NCBI GenBank assembly: GCA_016763075.1
Contig: JAESUM010000027.1
Span: 1 to 44,563 of the forward strand
DNA length: 44,563 bases
Direction: 5' to 3'
Source of the DNA: Pseudomonadales bacterium
GTDB lineage: Bacteria > Pseudomonadota > Gammaproteobacteria > Pseudomonadales > JAHRWD01
In this document: positions 7,444 to 34,514 of the stretch, one piece after another
Numbering within the stretch: the first letter of the stretch is position 1
Layout of the letters: each line of letters starts with the position of its first letter
Translations under genes and position numbers: made by a program
Notes under the pieces: generated by a model
Database searches by the model: none
The model's input: only the letters and a program-made list of their open reading frames with translations
What the model was told of the DNA's origin: nothing

Positions 7444-8415
7444 ATGGTTCAGGATATTCTTTCGCAAGACGAGATCGATGCGTTACTTCATGGCGTAGAT
7501 GATCGTGTGGTTGAACGCGAGGAGCCGCTCGCTGATGGAGAAGCGGCCAATTACGACTTAACCAGCCAAGACCGGATAGTCCGGGGTCGCATGCCGACCC
7601 TGGAAATGGTCAATGCACGTTTTGCACGGTATACCCGAATCAGCCTGTTTAACCTGTTGCGTAAAAACGCCGACGTTCAAGTTGGCGGTTTGCAGGTTAT
7701 GAAGTTTGGTGAGTACGTTCATACCATGTACGTGCCCACCAGCCTCAACATGGTTAAAGTACGGCCACTGCGGGGAACCGCTTTATTCGTATTGGATGCC
7801 AAATTAGTATTTAAATTGGTGGACAATTTTTTTGGCGGCGAAGGCCGGCATGCAAAAATTGAGGGTCGTGAATTCACACCCACTGAAAACCGAATTGTAC
7901 AAATGATGTTGGAACAAGCTTTTATCGATATGAAAGAAGCTTGGAAAACCGTGATGGATGTTGATTTCGATTACATCAGTTCAGAAGTAAATCCATCGAT
8001 GGCGAATATCGTTAGCCCAAGTGAAGTGGTGGTGATTAATACCTTTCATATTGAGCTAGATGGCGGTGGCGGCGAGCTGCATTTAACCATGCCATACTCA
8101 ATGCTAGAGCCTATTAAAGAGATGTTAGATGCAGGTCTGCAGTCTGATGTCGATGAAAAAGATGATCGCTGGGGTACCGTGCTGCGAAAAGATATCATGT
8201 CGGCAAACATCAATTTAAACGCGAACGTGATTGAAAAAAGGATCACTTTAAGAGATATCGCAGACCTTAAAGAAGGCGATATTTTACCGGTAGAAATGCC
8301 GGAACAAATCGTTTTGAAAGCCAATGGTGTACCGGTTTTTGATACCCAACTTGGTGTATCGAATGGACATCTGGCGTTAAAAATAATCGATTCAATTGCG
8401 ACAGAAGACGTATAA
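7444..8415 (+). CDS. fliM: Flagellar motor switch protein FliM
   Basis: FliM forms the middle of the C-ring and reverses the motor when phosphorylated CheY binds its N-terminus. That docking peptide is plain here at residues 5-17 (ILSQDEIDALLHG), close to the E. coli sequence. The middle CheC-like domain (about 50-230) contains the GGEGR segment, and the C-terminal SpoA domain is about 250-320. The 323-residue length is normal. GGAAG precedes the ATG by eight bases. The docking motif recurs in CheZ, CheA and the vWA protein of this window. Confidence 0.98.
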   Translation: MVQDILSQDEIDALLHGVDDRVVEREEPLADGEAANYDLTSQDRIVRGRMPTLEMVNARFARYTRISLFNLLRKNADVQVGGLQVMKFGEYVHTMYVPTSLNMVKVRPLRGTALFVLDAKLVFKLVDNFFGGEGRHAKIEGREFTPTENRIVQMMLEQAFIDMKEAWKTVMDVDFDYISSEVNPSMANIVSPSEVVVINTFHIELDGGGGELHLTMPYSMLEPIKEMLDAGLQSDVDEKDDRWGTVLRKDIMSANINLNANVIEKRITLRDIADLKEGDILPVEMPEQIVLKANGVPVFDTQLGVSNGHLALKIIDSIATEDV

Positions 8416-27120: not shown

Positions 27121-27609
27121 ATGGCTACATCCACAGTAAAAATGTCGAAGGGTGACAACGATCCGGTGTTGCAATGGGTGACCTTCAAGCTGGATGGAGA
27201 AACCTACGGTATTAACGTGATGCAGGTACAAGAAGTGCTGCGCCACACTGAAATCGCTCCAGTACCCGGTGCGCCTGAATATGTTTTGGGCATTATCAAC
27301 TTACGTGGCAACGTTGTTACGGTAATTGATACGCGTCATCGTTTTGGTTTGAACGCGGTAGAGATTTCAGAAAACACCAGAATCGTAATTATCGAAGCCG
27401 ACCAACATGTTGTTGGCATTATGGTAGATGCAGTAGCCGAAGTGGTTTATCTGAATCAATCTGAAATCGATAACGCGCCGAATGTTGGTAACGATGAGAC
27501 CTCCAAGTTTATTCAGGGCGTTTGCAACAAGAATGACGTACTGCTTATTTTGATTGACCTTAACAACATGTTAACGGATGAAGATTGGGTGGATATGGGC
27601 GCGGGATAA
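27121..27609 (+). CDS. cheW: Chemotaxis adaptor protein CheW
   Basis: CheW bridges receptors and CheA. The 162-residue product is a complete CheW domain: LQWVTFKLDGETYGINVMQVQEVLR, PEYVLGIINLRGNVVTVIDTRHRFG and the VGIMVDAVAEVVYL strand. AGAGG precedes the ATG. It has its own promoter region (sigma-28 and possibly sigma-54), followed by a hairpin, so it can be expressed independently of the large upstream operon. Confidence 0.97.
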   Translation: MATSTVKMSKGDNDPVLQWVTFKLDGETYGINVMQVQEVLRHTEIAPVPGAPEYVLGIINLRGNVVTVIDTRHRFGLNAVEISENTRIVIIEADQHVVGIMVDAVAEVVYLNQSEIDNAPNVGNDETSKFIQGVCNKNDVLLILIDLNNMLTDEDWVDMGAG

Positions 27610-27610
27610 A

Positions 27611-27642
27611 GCCCTTATTTATTCGTAGAGAATAAATAAGGC
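27611..27642 (+). terminator. Long hairpin downstream of cheW
   Basis: CCTTATTTATTC (27613-27624) pairs perfectly with GAATAAATAAGG (27630-27641) around loop GTAGA. The T tract is poor, so this may be a weak terminator or a 3'-end stabilising hairpin. It separates cheW from the DUF2802 gene. Confidence 0.6.
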
Positions 27643-27796: not shown

Positions 27797-28243
27797 ATGA
27801 ATATTTATAACCTACTTGTAAGCGTTAACGCCGTGCAATGGGCACTTTTGATAGCTGGTCTAGTGGTTGTAATACTGAGTATTCGCCAAGCATCCCTAAA
27901 AAAAGAGCTGAAAAGTTACGCTCGTTTGTTGGAATTAAAGAGCGACGGGAATTCAGAACAAAAGCTCGATGAAATAGCCGTTATGTGCCAAAGCCTTGTA
28001 GGGCTGGGCCAGCACATACAAAAAATTGAACGACGCTTAGGTACACTAGAGTCGAGCAACACTACCGGGCTTCAGCCCGATAATAGCGGCAAAACTCCTT
28101 ATCGTCAGGCAGCTGCGATGTTAGATATGGGCGCAGATTTAAATGACCTCGTGAATAGCCTAGAAATGTCTCAAGCCGAAGCACGGTTGTTTCAGGTGCT
28201 ACATGGCGATATGCAGGATAAGGAAGCGGTTAACCCAATCTAA
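27797..28243 (+). CDS. DUF2802 membrane-anchored protein of the chemotaxis locus
   Basis: The 148-residue product has one N-terminal membrane helix (about 12-30, VQWALLIAGLVVVILSI), a coiled-coil-like segment (about 33-85) and a conserved C-terminal patch, YRQAAAMLDMGADLNDLVNSLEMSQAEARLFQVLHG. That patch is like the helix-turn-helix-like end of DUF2802 proteins next to cheW in Pseudomonas (PA1465). Its role is unknown. The conserved linkage suggests a part in array or flagellar pole function. It precedes the vWA gene by 62 bases. Confidence 0.8.
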   Translation: MNIYNLLVSVNAVQWALLIAGLVVVILSIRQASLKKELKSYARLLELKSDGNSEQKLDEIAVMCQSLVGLGQHIQKIERRLGTLESSNTTGLQPDNSGKTPYRQAAAMLDMGADLNDLVNSLEMSQAEARLFQVLHGDMQDKEAVNPI

Positions 28244-28305: not shown

Positions 28306-30708
28306 ATGAAGTACTATAAACCCGTTCACCGAACATCATTGAATGGGGGTTTGTTATCCCTCATCAGTAATCACCTTATGAAGCTCAAGTTCATCTGTAC
28401 ACTGATGATACTGAGCGCATTTTCCCCGCTAAGTTTTGCCGAAGACGCTACCAAGCCTGATGTCAGAATTGTGGTAGATATTTCTGGCAGCATGAAAAAC
28501 AATGACCCGAATAATCTACGAATTCCTGCGGTAAAAATGCTGCTGGGGTTGCTTCCCGACGGGTCACGCGCGGGTGTTTGGACATTTGGCCGCTACGTTA
28601 ATATGTTGGTTCCGCACAAACCGGTCACTCAAAAGTGGAAAACTCAAGCACGCCAAAGCGTTAAAAAGATAAATTCTGCGGGTCAATTTACCCATATTGA
28701 ATTAGCACTAAAGAAAGCTGGGTTTGATCTTGACCATAATAAAAAACATAAAAATACCCACGTAATTTTATTGACCGATGGCCAGGTAGATATATCGAAA
28801 AATGCCAAACTAAACAAGAATTCTCGCAACAGTATTATCCAAAATCTGGCCAAAAAATATGCCAAAGCTGGGATAAAAATTCACACGGTAGCCTTATCTA
28901 AACAAGCTGATCATTTACTATTAAAGCGAATTTCTGCGGCAACCGGAGGGATCTCTACGGTCGCCGATGATGCAGATCAACTGATGAATATGTTTTTGCA
29001 GGTGTTTGACCAAGCGGCCCCGCAAGACCAACTACCGATCACAGGAAATGTTTTTCAGATTGATTCCAGCGTTAAAGAAGCCACGGTTTTACTATTTCGC
29101 AAGAACTCAGGGCAACCAACCAAATTGACTGACCCAAAGGGTCGAGTTTGGCAAAGTAATAAATTATCGAAAAAAATGAAATGGTTCGAAGATGAGAAAT
29201 TTGACCTCATCACCATTACCAACCCGATAGACGGTGATTGGATCATTGATGCAAGTCAGCACCCAGATAACCGAGTATCTGTTATTTCAGATCTTAAGCT
29301 ACGGGTGGAAGGGTTACCGGCGGTCATTGCAGCAGGCGAGCCGCTGACAATGAGTGTGTTTTTCTTAGAGAAAAACCGTTTATTAGACGATAAAGCATTT
29401 CTTGATCTTATCGATATCAGTATTCAAATCGACAGAAATGGCTCCAAGTTAGGTTTAGCCAGAGTGACTGATTTCCCAATGGTAAAAGGGAAATACAAAG
29501 TTAAACTGCGCTCGCTCAGCAAGTATGCATCCTATGCGATATTGATCGAGGCCGATGGCAAAACCTTCAGCCGAAAGTTCCAGCGCCTTTTCAAAATTGC
29601 CCCGCCATTGCCTGATGATCCTGAATTAGACGGTGATGTGTTTGAACAACTCGCGCCCGATCCGGAACCGATAGACATCGAGCCTGAAGTCGTTATAGGC
29701 GAATTGATGGAACACCCTGTCATCAGCAAAGTTGTGAGTGTTGGCACTGCGGATAATCCGGGGTATGACGTTGTATTGGATGTTGTAGATCCAACGATGA
29801 CGACTGAAGGCACTGCGGTGATTTCAATGATAGCAAGTCCCGATGGACGAACTTTTATCGGCACCGTAGACACTACGTCTGATACCCAGTGGAAAATGCA
29901 GTTTCGCGAAGAAGATTTAACCGCGGTTGGCGAGTACAAAATACAGTTTTCATTTACCGGGAAACAAACCAGCGGAAAAGAATTTGTTTATAAACCAGAT
30001 GCACTGGTCATCACCCACCAGGACGACTGGGTAGACCCAACCCCAGAGCCCGTTGAGCCTATCGAAGCGATAGTGGATGAGCCACTGGATTACGAAGAGC
30101 CGCTGATCGATACGATTGAAGAAGAACCATTGATAGATCAGCTAGAAACAGAGCCAGAAACGGTGCCGGAAGTTGACGACGAAGCAGCCGCTGAAGTTGA
30201 AGAATCTTGGTACACAAGTGGCTGGTTTGTTGGTGGGCTGATTGCGTTATTTAATTTGTTGGTGATTGGTGGTGGTTATTTCGCTTACCGTAAACTGACC
30301 CAGCCAGATTCTGAAGCTCAAGCACCGTCAGATGAAACGAAAGAGCCCGCAGCAAAAGCAGAGTCGAGCGCCGAAGAGCCAGCAGCGGTCGCGACAGATG
30401 ATGAAGAAGACGAAGGGATTCTTGATCAATTATTCGATGAAGACAGCGCGGATAGCGCTGCTTCGGAAGGCACGGATGACCTGCAGGACCTTCTAAAAGC
30501 GGTTGATGATGAACTCGTAGCGGCTGAAGCGCCAGTGCAAGCAGCGCCGGTAGAAAAAGCCCCAATAGAAAAACCCGCTGTCGAACCACCAGCAGCTGAA
30601 TCACCTGAACCGGTTGCCGAGCCAGCAGCGCCAGTTGCAGAACCTATAACCAAACCCGCAGCAGAACCAGTGGCTGAAGTAGTTGCAGCAGAGCCTTCTC
30701 CAGTATAA
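28306..30708 (+). CDS. Membrane-anchored von Willebrand A protein, reading frame ended by premature TAA
   Basis: The 800-residue frame has a signal peptide (hydrophobic core about 28-45; ATG 28378 would give a more compact signal). A vWA domain follows, with MIDAS residues DISGS (58-62), a Thr in GQFTH and LLTDGQVD (155-162). Beta-rich domains (about 245-430 and 455-570) come next, then an acidic Pro/Glu linker, one membrane helix (about 640-662) and an acidic Ala/Pro/Glu-rich cytoplasmic tail. The tail is cut at TAA 30706, but the same frame runs on for 157 codons (30709-31182). AGGA precedes ATG 28306. It may belong to the uncharacterised TIGR03503-type vWA proteins of chemotaxis loci, which I could not verify. 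Function unknown. Confidence 0.85.
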   Translation: MKYYKPVHRTSLNGGLLSLISNHLMKLKFICTLMILSAFSPLSFAEDATKPDVRIVVDISGSMKNNDPNNLRIPAVKMLLGLLPDGSRAGVWTFGRYVNMLVPHKPVTQKWKTQARQSVKKINSAGQFTHIELALKKAGFDLDHNKKHKNTHVILLTDGQVDISKNAKLNKNSRNSIIQNLAKKYAKAGIKIHTVALSKQADHLLLKRISAATGGISTVADDADQLMNMFLQVFDQAAPQDQLPITGNVFQIDSSVKEATVLLFRKNSGQPTKLTDPKGRVWQSNKLSKKMKWFEDEKFDLITITNPIDGDWIIDASQHPDNRVSVISDLKLRVEGLPAVIAAGEPLTMSVFFLEKNRLLDDKAFLDLIDISIQIDRNGSKLGLARVTDFPMVKGKYKVKLRSLSKYASYAILIEADGKTFSRKFQRLFKIAPPLPDDPELDGDVFEQLAPDPEPIDIEPEVVIGELMEHPVISKVVSVGTADNPGYDVVLDVVDPTMTTEGTAVISMIASPDGRTFIGTVDTTSDTQWKMQFREEDLTAVGEYKIQFSFTGKQTSGKEFVYKPDALVITHQDDWVDPTPEPVEPIEAIVDEPLDYEEPLIDTIEEEPLIDQLETEPETVPEVDDEAAAEVEESWYTSGWFVGGLIALFNLLVIGGGYFAYRKLTQPDSEAQAPSDETKEPAAKAESSAEEPAAVATDDEEDEGILDQLFDEDSADSAASEGTDDLQDLLKAVDDELVAAEAPVQAAPVEKAPIEKPAVEPPAAESPEPVAEPAAPVAEPITKPAAEPVAEVVAAEPSPV

Positions 30709-31182
30709 CCGACTCCTGCACCTGAACTAACTCCTGCACCTGAACTAACTCCGACACCTGAACTAACTCCGACACCTGCAGAAAAACCTGAAAGCGCCGA
30801 TGTAGCACCGGAGCAGGCACCAGCAGCTGAGGCACCCACTGAGCCCGAGCCCGAAGCTGCAGACGCACTAGATGATATTGACGCGCTAATGGCAGAGTTT
30901 ACTGTAGAGAGCGAAAATGCTAAAAAAGACATTAGCTCGGTAAGCCCTGCTGAAGACTCGGCGGAGAATAAGGTAGAAAATACGACAGATAATGCAGAAT
31001 CAGAAACGGCAGCCAAAGATGCACCGGCAGAACCGGCTGAAGCCGAGGCAGCTTCGCCAGATGATATTGATGCACTCATGGAAGAGTTCAGCGCTGCAGA
31101 AAAAGAGGGTGGCGAATCCGGCGATGAAGATGGTTTTGAAGTGGTTGGTTTTGACGAGGATTTATCCGACGACCCGAAATAA
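30709..31182 (+). pseudogene. In-frame continuation of the vWA protein tail after the internal stop
   Basis: These 157 codons are in the same frame as the preceding gene and keep its composition: acidic, Ala/Pro/Glu-rich, with no further stop until TAA 31180-31182. They encode LTPxPE repeats and two DDIDALM motifs (30871-30900 and 31060-31089), and end in a conserved-looking GFEVVGFDEDLSDDPK. A single base change (for example CAA or GAA to TAA) would join both parts into a protein of about 958 residues. Restart at ATG 30889 has no ribosome site. Options are a fresh nonsense mutation, stop readthrough or a sequencing error. Confidence 0.75.
30712..30780 (+). repeat. 18-bp tandem repeat directly after the internal stop
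   Basis: About 3.8 copies of an 18-base unit (ACTCCTGCACCTGAACTA and near variants) encode TPxPEL. The tract starts four bases after the in-frame TAA. Slippage could change the tail length in frame. Confidence 0.9.
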
Positions 31183-31261: not shown

Positions 31262-32230
31262 TTATTGCTCTAGTTCTTTCGCTGAAAACATATCTGCAAA
31301 AAGTGCGCTAGATAAGTAACGCTCTGCCGAATCCGGTAGAATCACTACAATATTTTTACCCTTGTGCTGCTTTTGTTGGGCAACTTTTATAGCAGCAGAA
31401 ACGGCAGCACCGCCAGAAATCCCCGCAAGAATACCTTCTTCCTTCATAAGCCGCCTGGCCGTTTCAATGGCTTCTTCGTTTGATACCAGTTCAACTTGAT
31501 CAACCAGTGACAAATCCAAGTTTCCAGGAATGAAGCCAGCACCGATGCCCTGAATTTTGTGAGGCTTATGTTCTGGTTCAAGCCCAGCAAGAGTATTGCT
31601 TATTACCTTTGAATCTTCGGGTTCAACCGCAACGGTTGTGATTGCTTTGCCCATGGTTTTTTTAATGTAGCGAGACACACCGGTTAGCGTGCCGCCGGTA
31701 CCTACGCCGGAGACGAAAATATCAACGCTGCCATCGGTATCATTCCAAATTTCAGGGCCGGTAGTTTTTTCGTGGATTTCTGGATTGGCTGGGTTGGTAA
31801 ATTGTTGCAGCATCAAGTGGGTTTCAGGGTCGGCGGCTACAATTTCAGCGGCCTTAGCAATGGCACCATTTATGCCCTTTGCCGGGTCGGTAAGCTCAAG
31901 ATCGGCTCCTAACGCTTTCATCAATTGACGTCTTTCCAAGCTGAAACTAGATGGCATGGTAAGCGTGAGCGAGTATCCGCGCGCGGCAGCCACGTAGGCT
32001 AGGGCGATACCGGTGTTGCCACTGGTGGGTTCGACCAATGTCATGCCGGGTTTTAAGAGGCCTGATTTTTCAGCATCCCACACCATGTTCGCACCGATAC
32101 GGCATTTCACTGAATTGGCAGGATTACGAGCTTCAATTTTGACGTAAATGTTGGCATCGGTCATATGCTTTAACTTAACCAGCGGCGTATTACCGATGGA
32201 TAACGTGTTGTCGTCAAAAATATTGCTCAT
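31262..32230 (-). CDS. cysK: Cysteine synthase A (O-acetylserine sulfhydrylase)
   Basis: CysK makes L-cysteine from O-acetylserine and sulfide with pyridoxal phosphate. The 322-residue product has the PLP Lys42 in [11 protein letters not shown], the substrate loop [12 protein letters not shown], the phosphate-binding [10 protein letters not shown] and the C-terminal [14 protein letters not shown]. Length and motifs favour CysK over CysM. It is a lone minus-strand gene between the chemotaxis region and the moxR pair. Confidence 0.96.
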
Positions 32231-32480
32231 GGTCTATTTCCGTTGGTTTCAAATTGAGTGGTATGCATGATAGCTATAGCAGTCGACGGCGCTTATCTAA
32301 TAGATGTATACGATACCGTGTTTACCCAACTATTGAAATTAACCGGTTCTATTGGGCCCGTTAAAGCGATACCGCCGACATACTTGCTATGGCCACAAAT
32401 TGATATTACATTAACCGGCTTGGTCTGCTGGAGCGGCCGAAATAATGAACCCTATTCAATAAGTATAAGTGGCGGAATCG

Positions 32481-33329
32481 ATGAAATTTGAAGGTACAGA
32501 TAGCTATATAGCAACCGACGACCTACAGCTTGCGGTAAACGCAGCGGTTGCACTTGAGCGGCCATTGTTAATTAAAGGCGAGCCGGGCACCGGTAAAACC
32601 ATGTTGGCAGAAGAAGTCGCTACTGCTTTGGATATGAAATTGATCCGTTGGCACATTAAGTCCACCACCAAAGCGCAGCAAGGGCTTTACGAATATGACG
32701 CCGTTTCACGTTTGCGTGATTCTCAGCTTGGCGGCGACAAAGTGAATGACATCGCTAACTACATTGTTAAAGGTAAACTTTGGGAAGCATTTGATGCCGA
32801 CGAGCAGGTTGTATTGCTGATTGATGAAATCGACAAGGCGGATATCGAATTTCCAAACGATTTGCTACATGAGCTCGATAAAATGGAGTTTTATGTTTAC
32901 GAGACACAAACCTTCGTAAAAGCAAAGCACCGCCCCATCATCATCATTACCAGTAACAATGAAAAAGAGTTGCCTGATGCTTTCTTGCGTCGTTGCTTCT
33001 TCCACTACATTAACTTTCCTGACCGCACTACAATGCGCGCGATTGTGGACGTACATCACCCAGATGTTCAGCAAGATCTGGTTAAAGATGCGATGGAGAT
33101 TTTCTTCGATCTTCGTACCGTTCCGGGCATGAAAAAGAAGCCATCGACTTCAGAGCTTATCGATTGGTTGAAGCTGTTAATGTCTGACGATATCCCCGAC
33201 GCTATTTTGAAAGACCGCGATCCAACTAAAGCGATTCCACCGCTTTATGGCGCATTGATCAAAAATGAACAGGATGTTCACTTGCTTGAAAAGCTAGCCT
33301 TTATGCATCGACGAGAAAGCCGGAGCTAA
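32481..33329 (+). CDS. MoxR-family AAA+ ATPase
   Basis: MoxR ATPases act as chaperones that insert cofactors or assemble complexes, usually with a vWA partner. The 282-residue product has Walker A GEPGTGKTM (33-41), Walker B VVLLIDEIDKAD (110-121), the sensor segment ITSNNEKELPDAFLRRC and a C-terminal lid. ATG 32481 is preferred to GTG 32469, since GGCGGA stands just before it. Three bases separate its stop from the vWA gene. The client is not apparent: no cox or dehydrogenase genes adjoin. Confidence 0.93.
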   Translation: MKFEGTDSYIATDDLQLAVNAAVALERPLLIKGEPGTGKTMLAEEVATALDMKLIRWHIKSTTKAQQGLYEYDAVSRLRDSQLGGDKVNDIANYIVKGKLWEAFDADEQVVLLIDEIDKADIEFPNDLLHELDKMEFYVYETQTFVKAKHRPIIIITSNNEKELPDAFLRRCFFHYINFPDRTTMRAIVDVHHPDVQQDLVKDAMEIFFDLRTVPGMKKKPSTSELIDWLKLLMSDDIPDAILKDRDPTKAIPPLYGALIKNEQDVHLLEKLAFMHRRESRS

Positions 33330-33332
33330 AAA

Positions 33333-34514
33333 GTGTTAATCGACTTTTTTCTAACCCTGAAGAGAGCCAAAGTACCGGTTAGTCTGCGTGAATTACTAGA
33401 CTTGATCGTGGCAATGAAGAAGGGGCTAGTGTTCGCTGATGTTGATCAGTTCTATTTTCTAAGCCGCGCAATCATGGTGAAGGACGAATCGCATTACGAT
33501 AAGTTCGACATTGCTTTTGGTGTCTTCTTCAGAGGCCTTGATAGCCTCGAAGGTATCATGGAAGCACTGATTCCGGACGACTGGATTCGTAAAGCCTTCA
33601 GTGAATCGTTATCAGAAGAAGAAAAGGCCGCTATCGAATCGATGGGGGGGCTTGAAAAACTGATTGAAGAATTCAAAAAACGACTTGAAGAGCAGGATGA
33701 ACGTCACGAAGGTGGCAATAAATGGATCGGTACTGGCGGGACTTCACCCTTTGGTAACGGTGGGTTTAATCCAGAAGGCGTTCGGGTTGGCGGTGACGGC
33801 AACGAAAACTTCCGTGCGGTAAAAGTATGGGAACAACGTGATTTCAAAGACCTTGACGATAATGTCGAGATTGGTACCCGTGAAATTAAGATGGCGCTGC
33901 GCAAATTGCGTAAGTTCGCTCGTACCGGTGCTGAAGAAGAACTCGATATCGACGATACCATTCGCTCTACCGCGCGTAATGCCGGTATGCTGGATATCAA
34001 AATGGTGGCTGAGCGTCATAACTCGATCAAAGTATTGATATTTTTTGATGTCGGCGGGTCGATGGATCCTCACGTTAAAGTCTGTGAAGAACTGTTCTCA
34101 GCGACTCGTTCCCAGTTTAAGCACCTCAAGTACTTTTACTTTCATAACTTTATCTACGAATCAGTGTGGAGTGATAACTCACGCCGAAATGACGAACGCA
34201 CCCCAACGTGGGATATTCTGCACAAATACAGCTCTGACTATAAGATCATTTTTGTCGGTGATGCCAGTATGGCACCCTATGAAGTGGCCAACGTTGGCGG
34301 CAGTATCGAGCATGATAACGAAGAGGCCGGTGCCACGTGGATGGAACGCTTCACCGAAGTGTATGACAAAATCATATGGCTGAACCCACAAACGCAGGAC
34401 ACGTGGGAATACTCCAGCAGTATTTCTATGGTGCAGCATCTACTTGAAGATAAGATGTTCCCACTTACGTTGCGTGGATTGGACGAAGGGATTACATACC
34501 TAAACCGTTCTTAA
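33333..34514 (+). CDS. CoxE-type vWA-domain protein, partner of the MoxR ATPase
   Basis: The 393-residue product starts at GTG 33333 with GGAG about eight bases upstream. The N-terminal half is charged and helical, with a Gly-rich linker (about 125-155). The C-terminal half is a vWA domain with DVGGSMD at the metal site, in place of the standard DxSxS; the substitution is usual for this subfamily. MoxR-vWA pairs work as one ATPase-adaptor machine. The pair ends in a strong terminator, so the two genes form a complete operon. Confidence 0.92.
   Translation: MLIDFFLTLKRAKVPVSLRELLDLIVAMKKGLVFADVDQFYFLSRAIMVKDESHYDKFDIAFGVFFRGLDSLEGIMEALIPDDWIRKAFSESLSEEEKAAIESMGGLEKLIEEFKKRLEEQDERHEGGNKWIGTGGTSPFGNGGFNPEGVRVGGDGNENFRAVKVWEQRDFKDLDDNVEIGTREIKMALRKLRKFARTGAEEELDIDDTIRSTARNAGMLDIKMVAERHNSIKVLIFFDVGGSMDPHVKVCEELFSATRSQFKHLKYFYFHNFIYESVWSDNSRRNDERTPTWDILHKYSSDYKIIFVGDASMAPYEVANVGGSIEHDNEEAGATWMERFTEVYDKIIWLNPQTQDTWEYSSSISMVQHLLEDKMFPLTLRGLDEGITYLNRS

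Follow-up and report, generated by a model that had tools for sequence, protein, structure and literature searches.

A vWA-bearing membrane protein with putative homology to MotW and FliM-like tail motifs in a Pseudomonadales bacterium

The gene starting at position 28306 of the analyzed window, a stretch of 44,563 nucleotides from a Pseudomonadales bacterium, probably encodes a vWA-bearing homologue of the motility protein MotW. The protein would be located in the inner membrane at the cell pole, and its full-length form in the congener would dock CheY-P or FlhG through FliM-like peptides. We assign this reading a probability of roughly 0.6. It would give a testable function, by way of MotW, to the widespread uncharacterized vWA membrane proteins of marine Gammaproteobacteria, a family for which one genome collection contains at least 505 loci. 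It would also show that docking peptides of the FliM type are not confined to the C-ring but can be part of an envelope protein's tail. Binding of CheY-P or FlhG would open a direct physical route by which the envelope could influence motor switching or the control of flagellar number.

Domain architecture of the vWA protein

The open reading frame of the vWA membrane protein spans positions 28306-30708 and encodes 800 aa, terminating at an in-frame TAA. All features are on the forward strand unless stated otherwise. Judged by the position of the signal peptide, the ATG at 28378 (Met25) is a likelier start than the ATG at 28306. The topology given in the earlier note, comprising a signal peptide, a vWA domain, beta domains, one membrane helix, and an acidic tail, was recovered in full by the combination of Pfam, sequence, and an AlphaFold2 model built with 39 related sequences.

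The signal peptide (MKLKFICTLMILSAFSPLSFA, 28378-28440) was identified in the sequence and corresponds to a helix at residues 15-39 in the model. It is followed by a periplasmic vWA domain (aa 50-238, 28453-29019), which was assigned to PF00092 with an E-value of 7.7e-12 in the Pfam scan and modeled with a pLDDT mostly above 90. The domain has a Rossmann-like fold with the MIDAS pattern DxSxS...T...D, and the residues D58, S60, S62, T129, and D158 are intact in this protein and invariant in 39 sequences. In the fold search, solved vWA domains gave Z scores of up to 25, with an rmsd of 2.0 for 191 residues. Clear matches to solved structures were obtained for the vWA domain only, and this search has no bearing on whether the fold of the Ig-like part is novel.

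Three periplasmic beta-sandwich (Ig-like) domains at aa 241-335, 340-432, and 472-571 (29026-30018) lead into a disordered, acidic, Pro/Glu-rich periplasmic linker (aa 572-638, 30019-30219) with a pLDDT below 50 in the model. A single transmembrane helix (aa 639-665, 30220-30300) was found in both sequence and model. The translated cytoplasmic tail (aa 666-800, 30301-30705) is acidic and includes the conserved helix DDLQDLLKAVDDELV; it is modeled as disordered with one helix.

HubP/FimV likewise combines a periplasmic domain, one membrane helix, and an acidic cytoplasmic part, but the Pfam and NCBIfam scans of the vWA protein found neither the LysM/FimV core nor the C-terminal FimV TPR domain. 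The vWA protein was rejected as a replacement for HubP/FimV because a separate FimV is encoded in both this genome and the congener.

Homology to TIGR03503 and, probably, to MotW

The Ig-like domains are homologous to the ectodomain of TIGR03503/MotW. The NCBIfam scan matched aa 242-375 to profile positions 2-136 of TIGR03503 with an E-value of 3.8e-27 and 95.2 bits, a score below the curated cut-off of 305.6 bits. Several vWA relatives match profile positions 2-373. Alignment of the vWA family with 15 TIGR03503 proteins using hhalign gave a probability of 100% and an E-value of 1.7e-43 over 299 columns, which cover the entire Ig-like region. A literature search for TIGR03503 found no paper on it.

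MotW is the inner-membrane protein VC2232 of Vibrio cholerae, which is recruited to the pole by its periplasmic part via HubP and whose loss results in lower tumbling and speed (PMC8789113). It was described as having a signal peptide, Ig-like domains, a coiled coil, a C-proximal helix, and a short Lys/Arg tail that is dispensable for localization (PMC8789113). The TIGR03503 protein of genome G193 has the same architecture when its domains are read from sequence, with a signal peptide, Ig-like/beta domains, a membrane-proximal coiled coil, a C-proximal helix, and a short Lys/Arg-rich end over 439 aa. Its gene adjoins dnaQ and rnhA and is found near fadE (dnaQ and fadE identified by Pfam), and dnaQ adjoins the TIGR03503 gene in 25 of 25 loci. 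We take dnaQ and fadE to be VC2233 and VC2231 in V. cholerae. The rnhA gene of this species is VC2234 (PMC6606805), two locus numbers from VC2232. Given this position and the shared architecture, MotW probably belongs to TIGR03503; the assignment is based on synteny and the described architecture.

The vWA protein would then be a vWA-bearing homologue of MotW. Both have a signal peptide, three Ig-like periplasmic domains with homology across this region, and a single C-proximal helix, and both are found in flagellated Gammaproteobacteria. The vWA protein differs by the additional N-terminal vWA domain with its MIDAS and by a disordered linker in the place of the coiled coil. While the tail of MotW is short and positively charged, that of the vWA protein is acidic and at least 135 aa long. 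The gene positions differ as well, with the MotW gene between dnaQ/rnhA and fadE, and the vWA gene behind cheW-fipA in this genome and behind ycgN in relatives.

Gene neighborhood and rearrangement

In the window, the vWA gene lies directly behind cheW (27121-27609) and a gene that the domain scan assigned to DUF2802 (27797-28243), as the earlier note had described. That note also stated that no function is established, which holds for the vWA form. The DUF2802 protein has since been named FipA; it is a partner of FlhF, and its gene is located downstream of the flagellar/chemotaxis operon (PMC11620751). A 187-base gap separates cheW from fipA, and the inverted repeat GCCCTTATTTATTC-gtaga-GAATAAATAAGGC at 27612-27642, immediately 3' of cheW, may point to a separate transcription unit for fipA and the vWA gene. 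Counts in the promoter/terminator scan were not above those of shuffles.

The location behind chemotaxis genes is limited to one genus. Among 80 named loci and 30 order-level loci, which are partly overlapping sets, the congener alone shared the chemotaxis linkage of the vWA gene. The vWA gene and fipA were 290-600 kb apart or on separate contigs in 19 of 19 other relatives carrying both. In the usual order, dnaX-ybaB-recR-rnd-ycgL-ycgN is followed by a small membrane protein, the vWA gene, in some cases cysK, and then moxR and coxE, where dnaX, ybaB, recR, rnd, and ycgL were named by gene order and length and ycgN by its CxxCxxCC domain. Since the small membrane protein still adjoins ycgN on another contig in both this genome and the congener, with the vWA gene gone from there, the present location is explained by a rearrangement that broke the old order immediately 5' of the vWA gene and placed the gene behind cheW-fipA. 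The relocated segment includes cysK (31262-32230, reverse strand). The genes for a MoxR-type AAA ATPase and a CoxE-type vWA protein (32469-34514) are conserved downstream neighbors, occurring in 44 and 41 of the 80 named loci, respectively, and both were carried along when the vWA gene was relocated in this genus.

The chemotaxis linkage arose once, and conserved membership of a chemotaxis operon was rejected. As the linkage to cheW/DUF2802 is absent in relatives outside the genus, the argument that the earlier note drew from operon position fails. Its broader proposal of an envelope protein acting on motility or chemotaxis draws support instead from the homology to MotW/TIGR03503, the co-occurrence with FliM, and the EIDAL motifs.

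In-frame stop and ancestral C-terminus

The earlier note had treated 28306-31182 as one reading frame and thereby read through the TAA at 30706-30708; position 31182 marks where a second segment in the same frame stops. Behind the TAA, a tail remnant (30709-31182) of 157 codons (30709-31179) is homologous to the C-terminus of the congener protein. In the alignment of both tails, this frame ends with DGFEVVGFDEDLSDDPK and the congener protein with DDFEIVGFDEDLSDDP. The gene is uninterrupted and encodes 871 aa in the congener (G001 = JARGPR01, locus L073), the single congener compared. Because of this shared ending, the 157 codons are regarded as the genuine, ancestral C-terminus, and the stop is therefore either a recent truncation or a sequence error. 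Between the two congeners, synonymous sites are saturated, and dN/dS values for the tail are therefore descriptive only.

Lineage-specific gene decay or a wrong assembly, with the truncated 800-aa protein as a pseudogene-like product, is a possible account of the locus, though an unlikely one. It fits an in-frame TAA in a gene that is intact in the congener, and it also fits the frameshift in motY of the same genome. Past the stop, however, the frame stays open to its conserved end, and all remaining genes common to the window and the congener align in one frame. The account also has no bearing on the function of the congener protein. The motY gene (L159:4841-5775, G000:C88; PF18393 in the congener) is on another contig and is frameshifted in this genome only. 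As a second broken motility gene besides the vWA tail, it reflects either an assembly error or incipient motility loss.

FliM-like motifs in the tail

Two FliM-like motifs, LDDIDALMAEF (30871-30888) and PDDIDALMEEF (31060-31077), are encoded in the remnant behind the stop. The EIDAL motif of FliM binds CheY-P (PMC9126983, PMC6946799), and FlhG also contacts the FliM N-terminus (PMC12826062). In the window, fliM (7444-8415) encodes the N-terminus MVQDILSQDEIDALLHG, which is the reference CheY-P docking motif and reads DEIDALL at its core. The tail versions DDIDALM/EDIDALI fit the docking core of the N-terminal EIDAL(L) peptide of FliM/FliY; E/D-I-D-A-L with a hydrophobic next residue was found twice in the congener tail and twice behind the stop in this genome. 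While the FliM/FliY peptide is single and N-terminal in a C-ring protein, the tail motifs are internal tandem copies in the acidic tail of a membrane protein, end in M or I, and in this genome are separated from the translated protein. If the stop is real, the docking peptides are severed here.

The DNA pattern [DE][DE]IDA(L/F) had five sites in this genome, namely FliM, two in the vWA tail, a thiolase, and a non-gene site. In the congener, it was found in FliM, twice in the vWA tail, and at one non-gene site. The congener tail held 2 motif copies compared with 0.005 in shuffles, and exact [DE]IDALL occurred in 3 copies from two lineages among 101 other family tails, again compared with 0.005 in shuffles. 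The "CheY-dock-like" motifs that the earlier note saw in the tail are thus real, with DDIDALM far above chance, but its text had assigned them to a protein that ends before both copies in this genome. Exact EIDALL is present in acidic tails of the vWA relatives L080, L100, and L104, which are without chemotaxis linkage, and these are apparently independent occurrences.

The motifs could also be incidental acidic helices without a partner in a motility protein of the MotW type, with the chemotaxis location as a neutral outcome of the rearrangement. We consider this fairly improbable. Family tail lengths lie between about 10 and more than 400 residues and most tails are without the motif, the linkage arose only once, and translation of the protein ends before the motifs in this genome, all of which would agree with incidental motifs. 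Against this reading, motif counts in the genus as well as in two further lineages are higher than in shuffles, while 20 FimV tails of similar acidity, with 9,825 residues, contained no [DE]IDALL; the FimV tail of this genome is likewise without the motif. Both copies were moreover kept between the congeners although the linkers diverged.

Co-occurrence with flagellar genes

Across 56 genomes of the order, FliM was present in 28 of 31 carriers of the vWA protein compared with 13 of 25 non-carriers (p=0.002), and the co-occurrence was retained with one genome per family (p=0.001); shared ancestry is only partly controlled in these statistics. A stricter "polar-type" FliM score gave p=2e-6 with a threshold chosen after seeing the data, and for this reason the test for any FliM (p=0.002) was relied on. 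FipA also co-occurred with the vWA protein (p=0.0005, 56 genomes). The exceptions were three vWA carriers without detectable FliM and five strong-FliM genomes without the vWA protein. CoxE, the neighbor used as a control, showed no co-occurrence with the vWA protein in the 56 genomes (p=0.74), occurring in 45 of them compared with 31 for the vWA protein.

It is quite improbable that the protein serves envelope integrity or substrate handling jointly with its neighbors, the MoxR ATPase and the CoxE-type vWA protein, unrelated to motility: the frequent downstream genes, their joint relocation, and the precedent of known MoxR-vWA pairs are in favor, but the presence of the vWA protein follows FliM and is independent of CoxE, and MoxR is cytoplasmic whereas the vWA domain is periplasmic in the model. 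Functional pairing with MoxR/CoxE was rejected on the negative co-occurrence test. BatA/BatB and other MoxR-associated vWA proteins share the vWA domain with a MIDAS and a nearby MoxR gene. They differ from the present protein, in which a periplasmic vWA domain precedes the Ig-like domains and which does not co-occur with MoxR/CoxE. A separate, Bat-operon-like MoxR-vWA cluster is present elsewhere in the genome.

Proposed mode of action

As a vWA-bearing MotW homologue, the protein may act as follows. The periplasmic metal-binding vWA domain and the three Ig-like domains would bind a partner in the envelope, which is probably either HubP/FimV, the polar landmark, or the cell wall or flagellar base at the pole. 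The acidic cytoplasmic tail would present short peptides to the motility machinery, and in this genus the rearrangement joined the gene to the che/fipA region at its 3' end. In the full-length tail, the two motifs resembling the FliM N-terminus most likely dock CheY-P and/or FlhG, and in this way the vWA protein would sequester switching signals at the flagellated pole or relay them there.

A more specific and tentative version, which we hold to be doubtful, is a transmembrane sensor of the envelope that has no relation to chemoreceptors and acts directly on the switch. The vWA and Ig-like domains would sense the condition of the pole or of the flagellar base. The tandem FliM-like peptides would bind CheY-P in competition with the C-ring, or would hold FlhG, so that the state of the envelope would set the reversal frequency without CheA.

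Membrane proteins encoded upstream in relatives

The gene preceding the vWA gene in relatives was considered as a disguised DUF2802 gene. This was rejected, as it encodes a different membrane protein of about 110 aa without a Pfam match. In many relatives, the gene for this conserved multi-helix protein (G000:C88:32816-33130) comes right before the vWA gene, and the two proteins are possible partners. A three-helix membrane protein of the YLATT type (PF20303; L036:7474-8139) is encoded just upstream of the vWA gene in about 20 of the 80 named loci.
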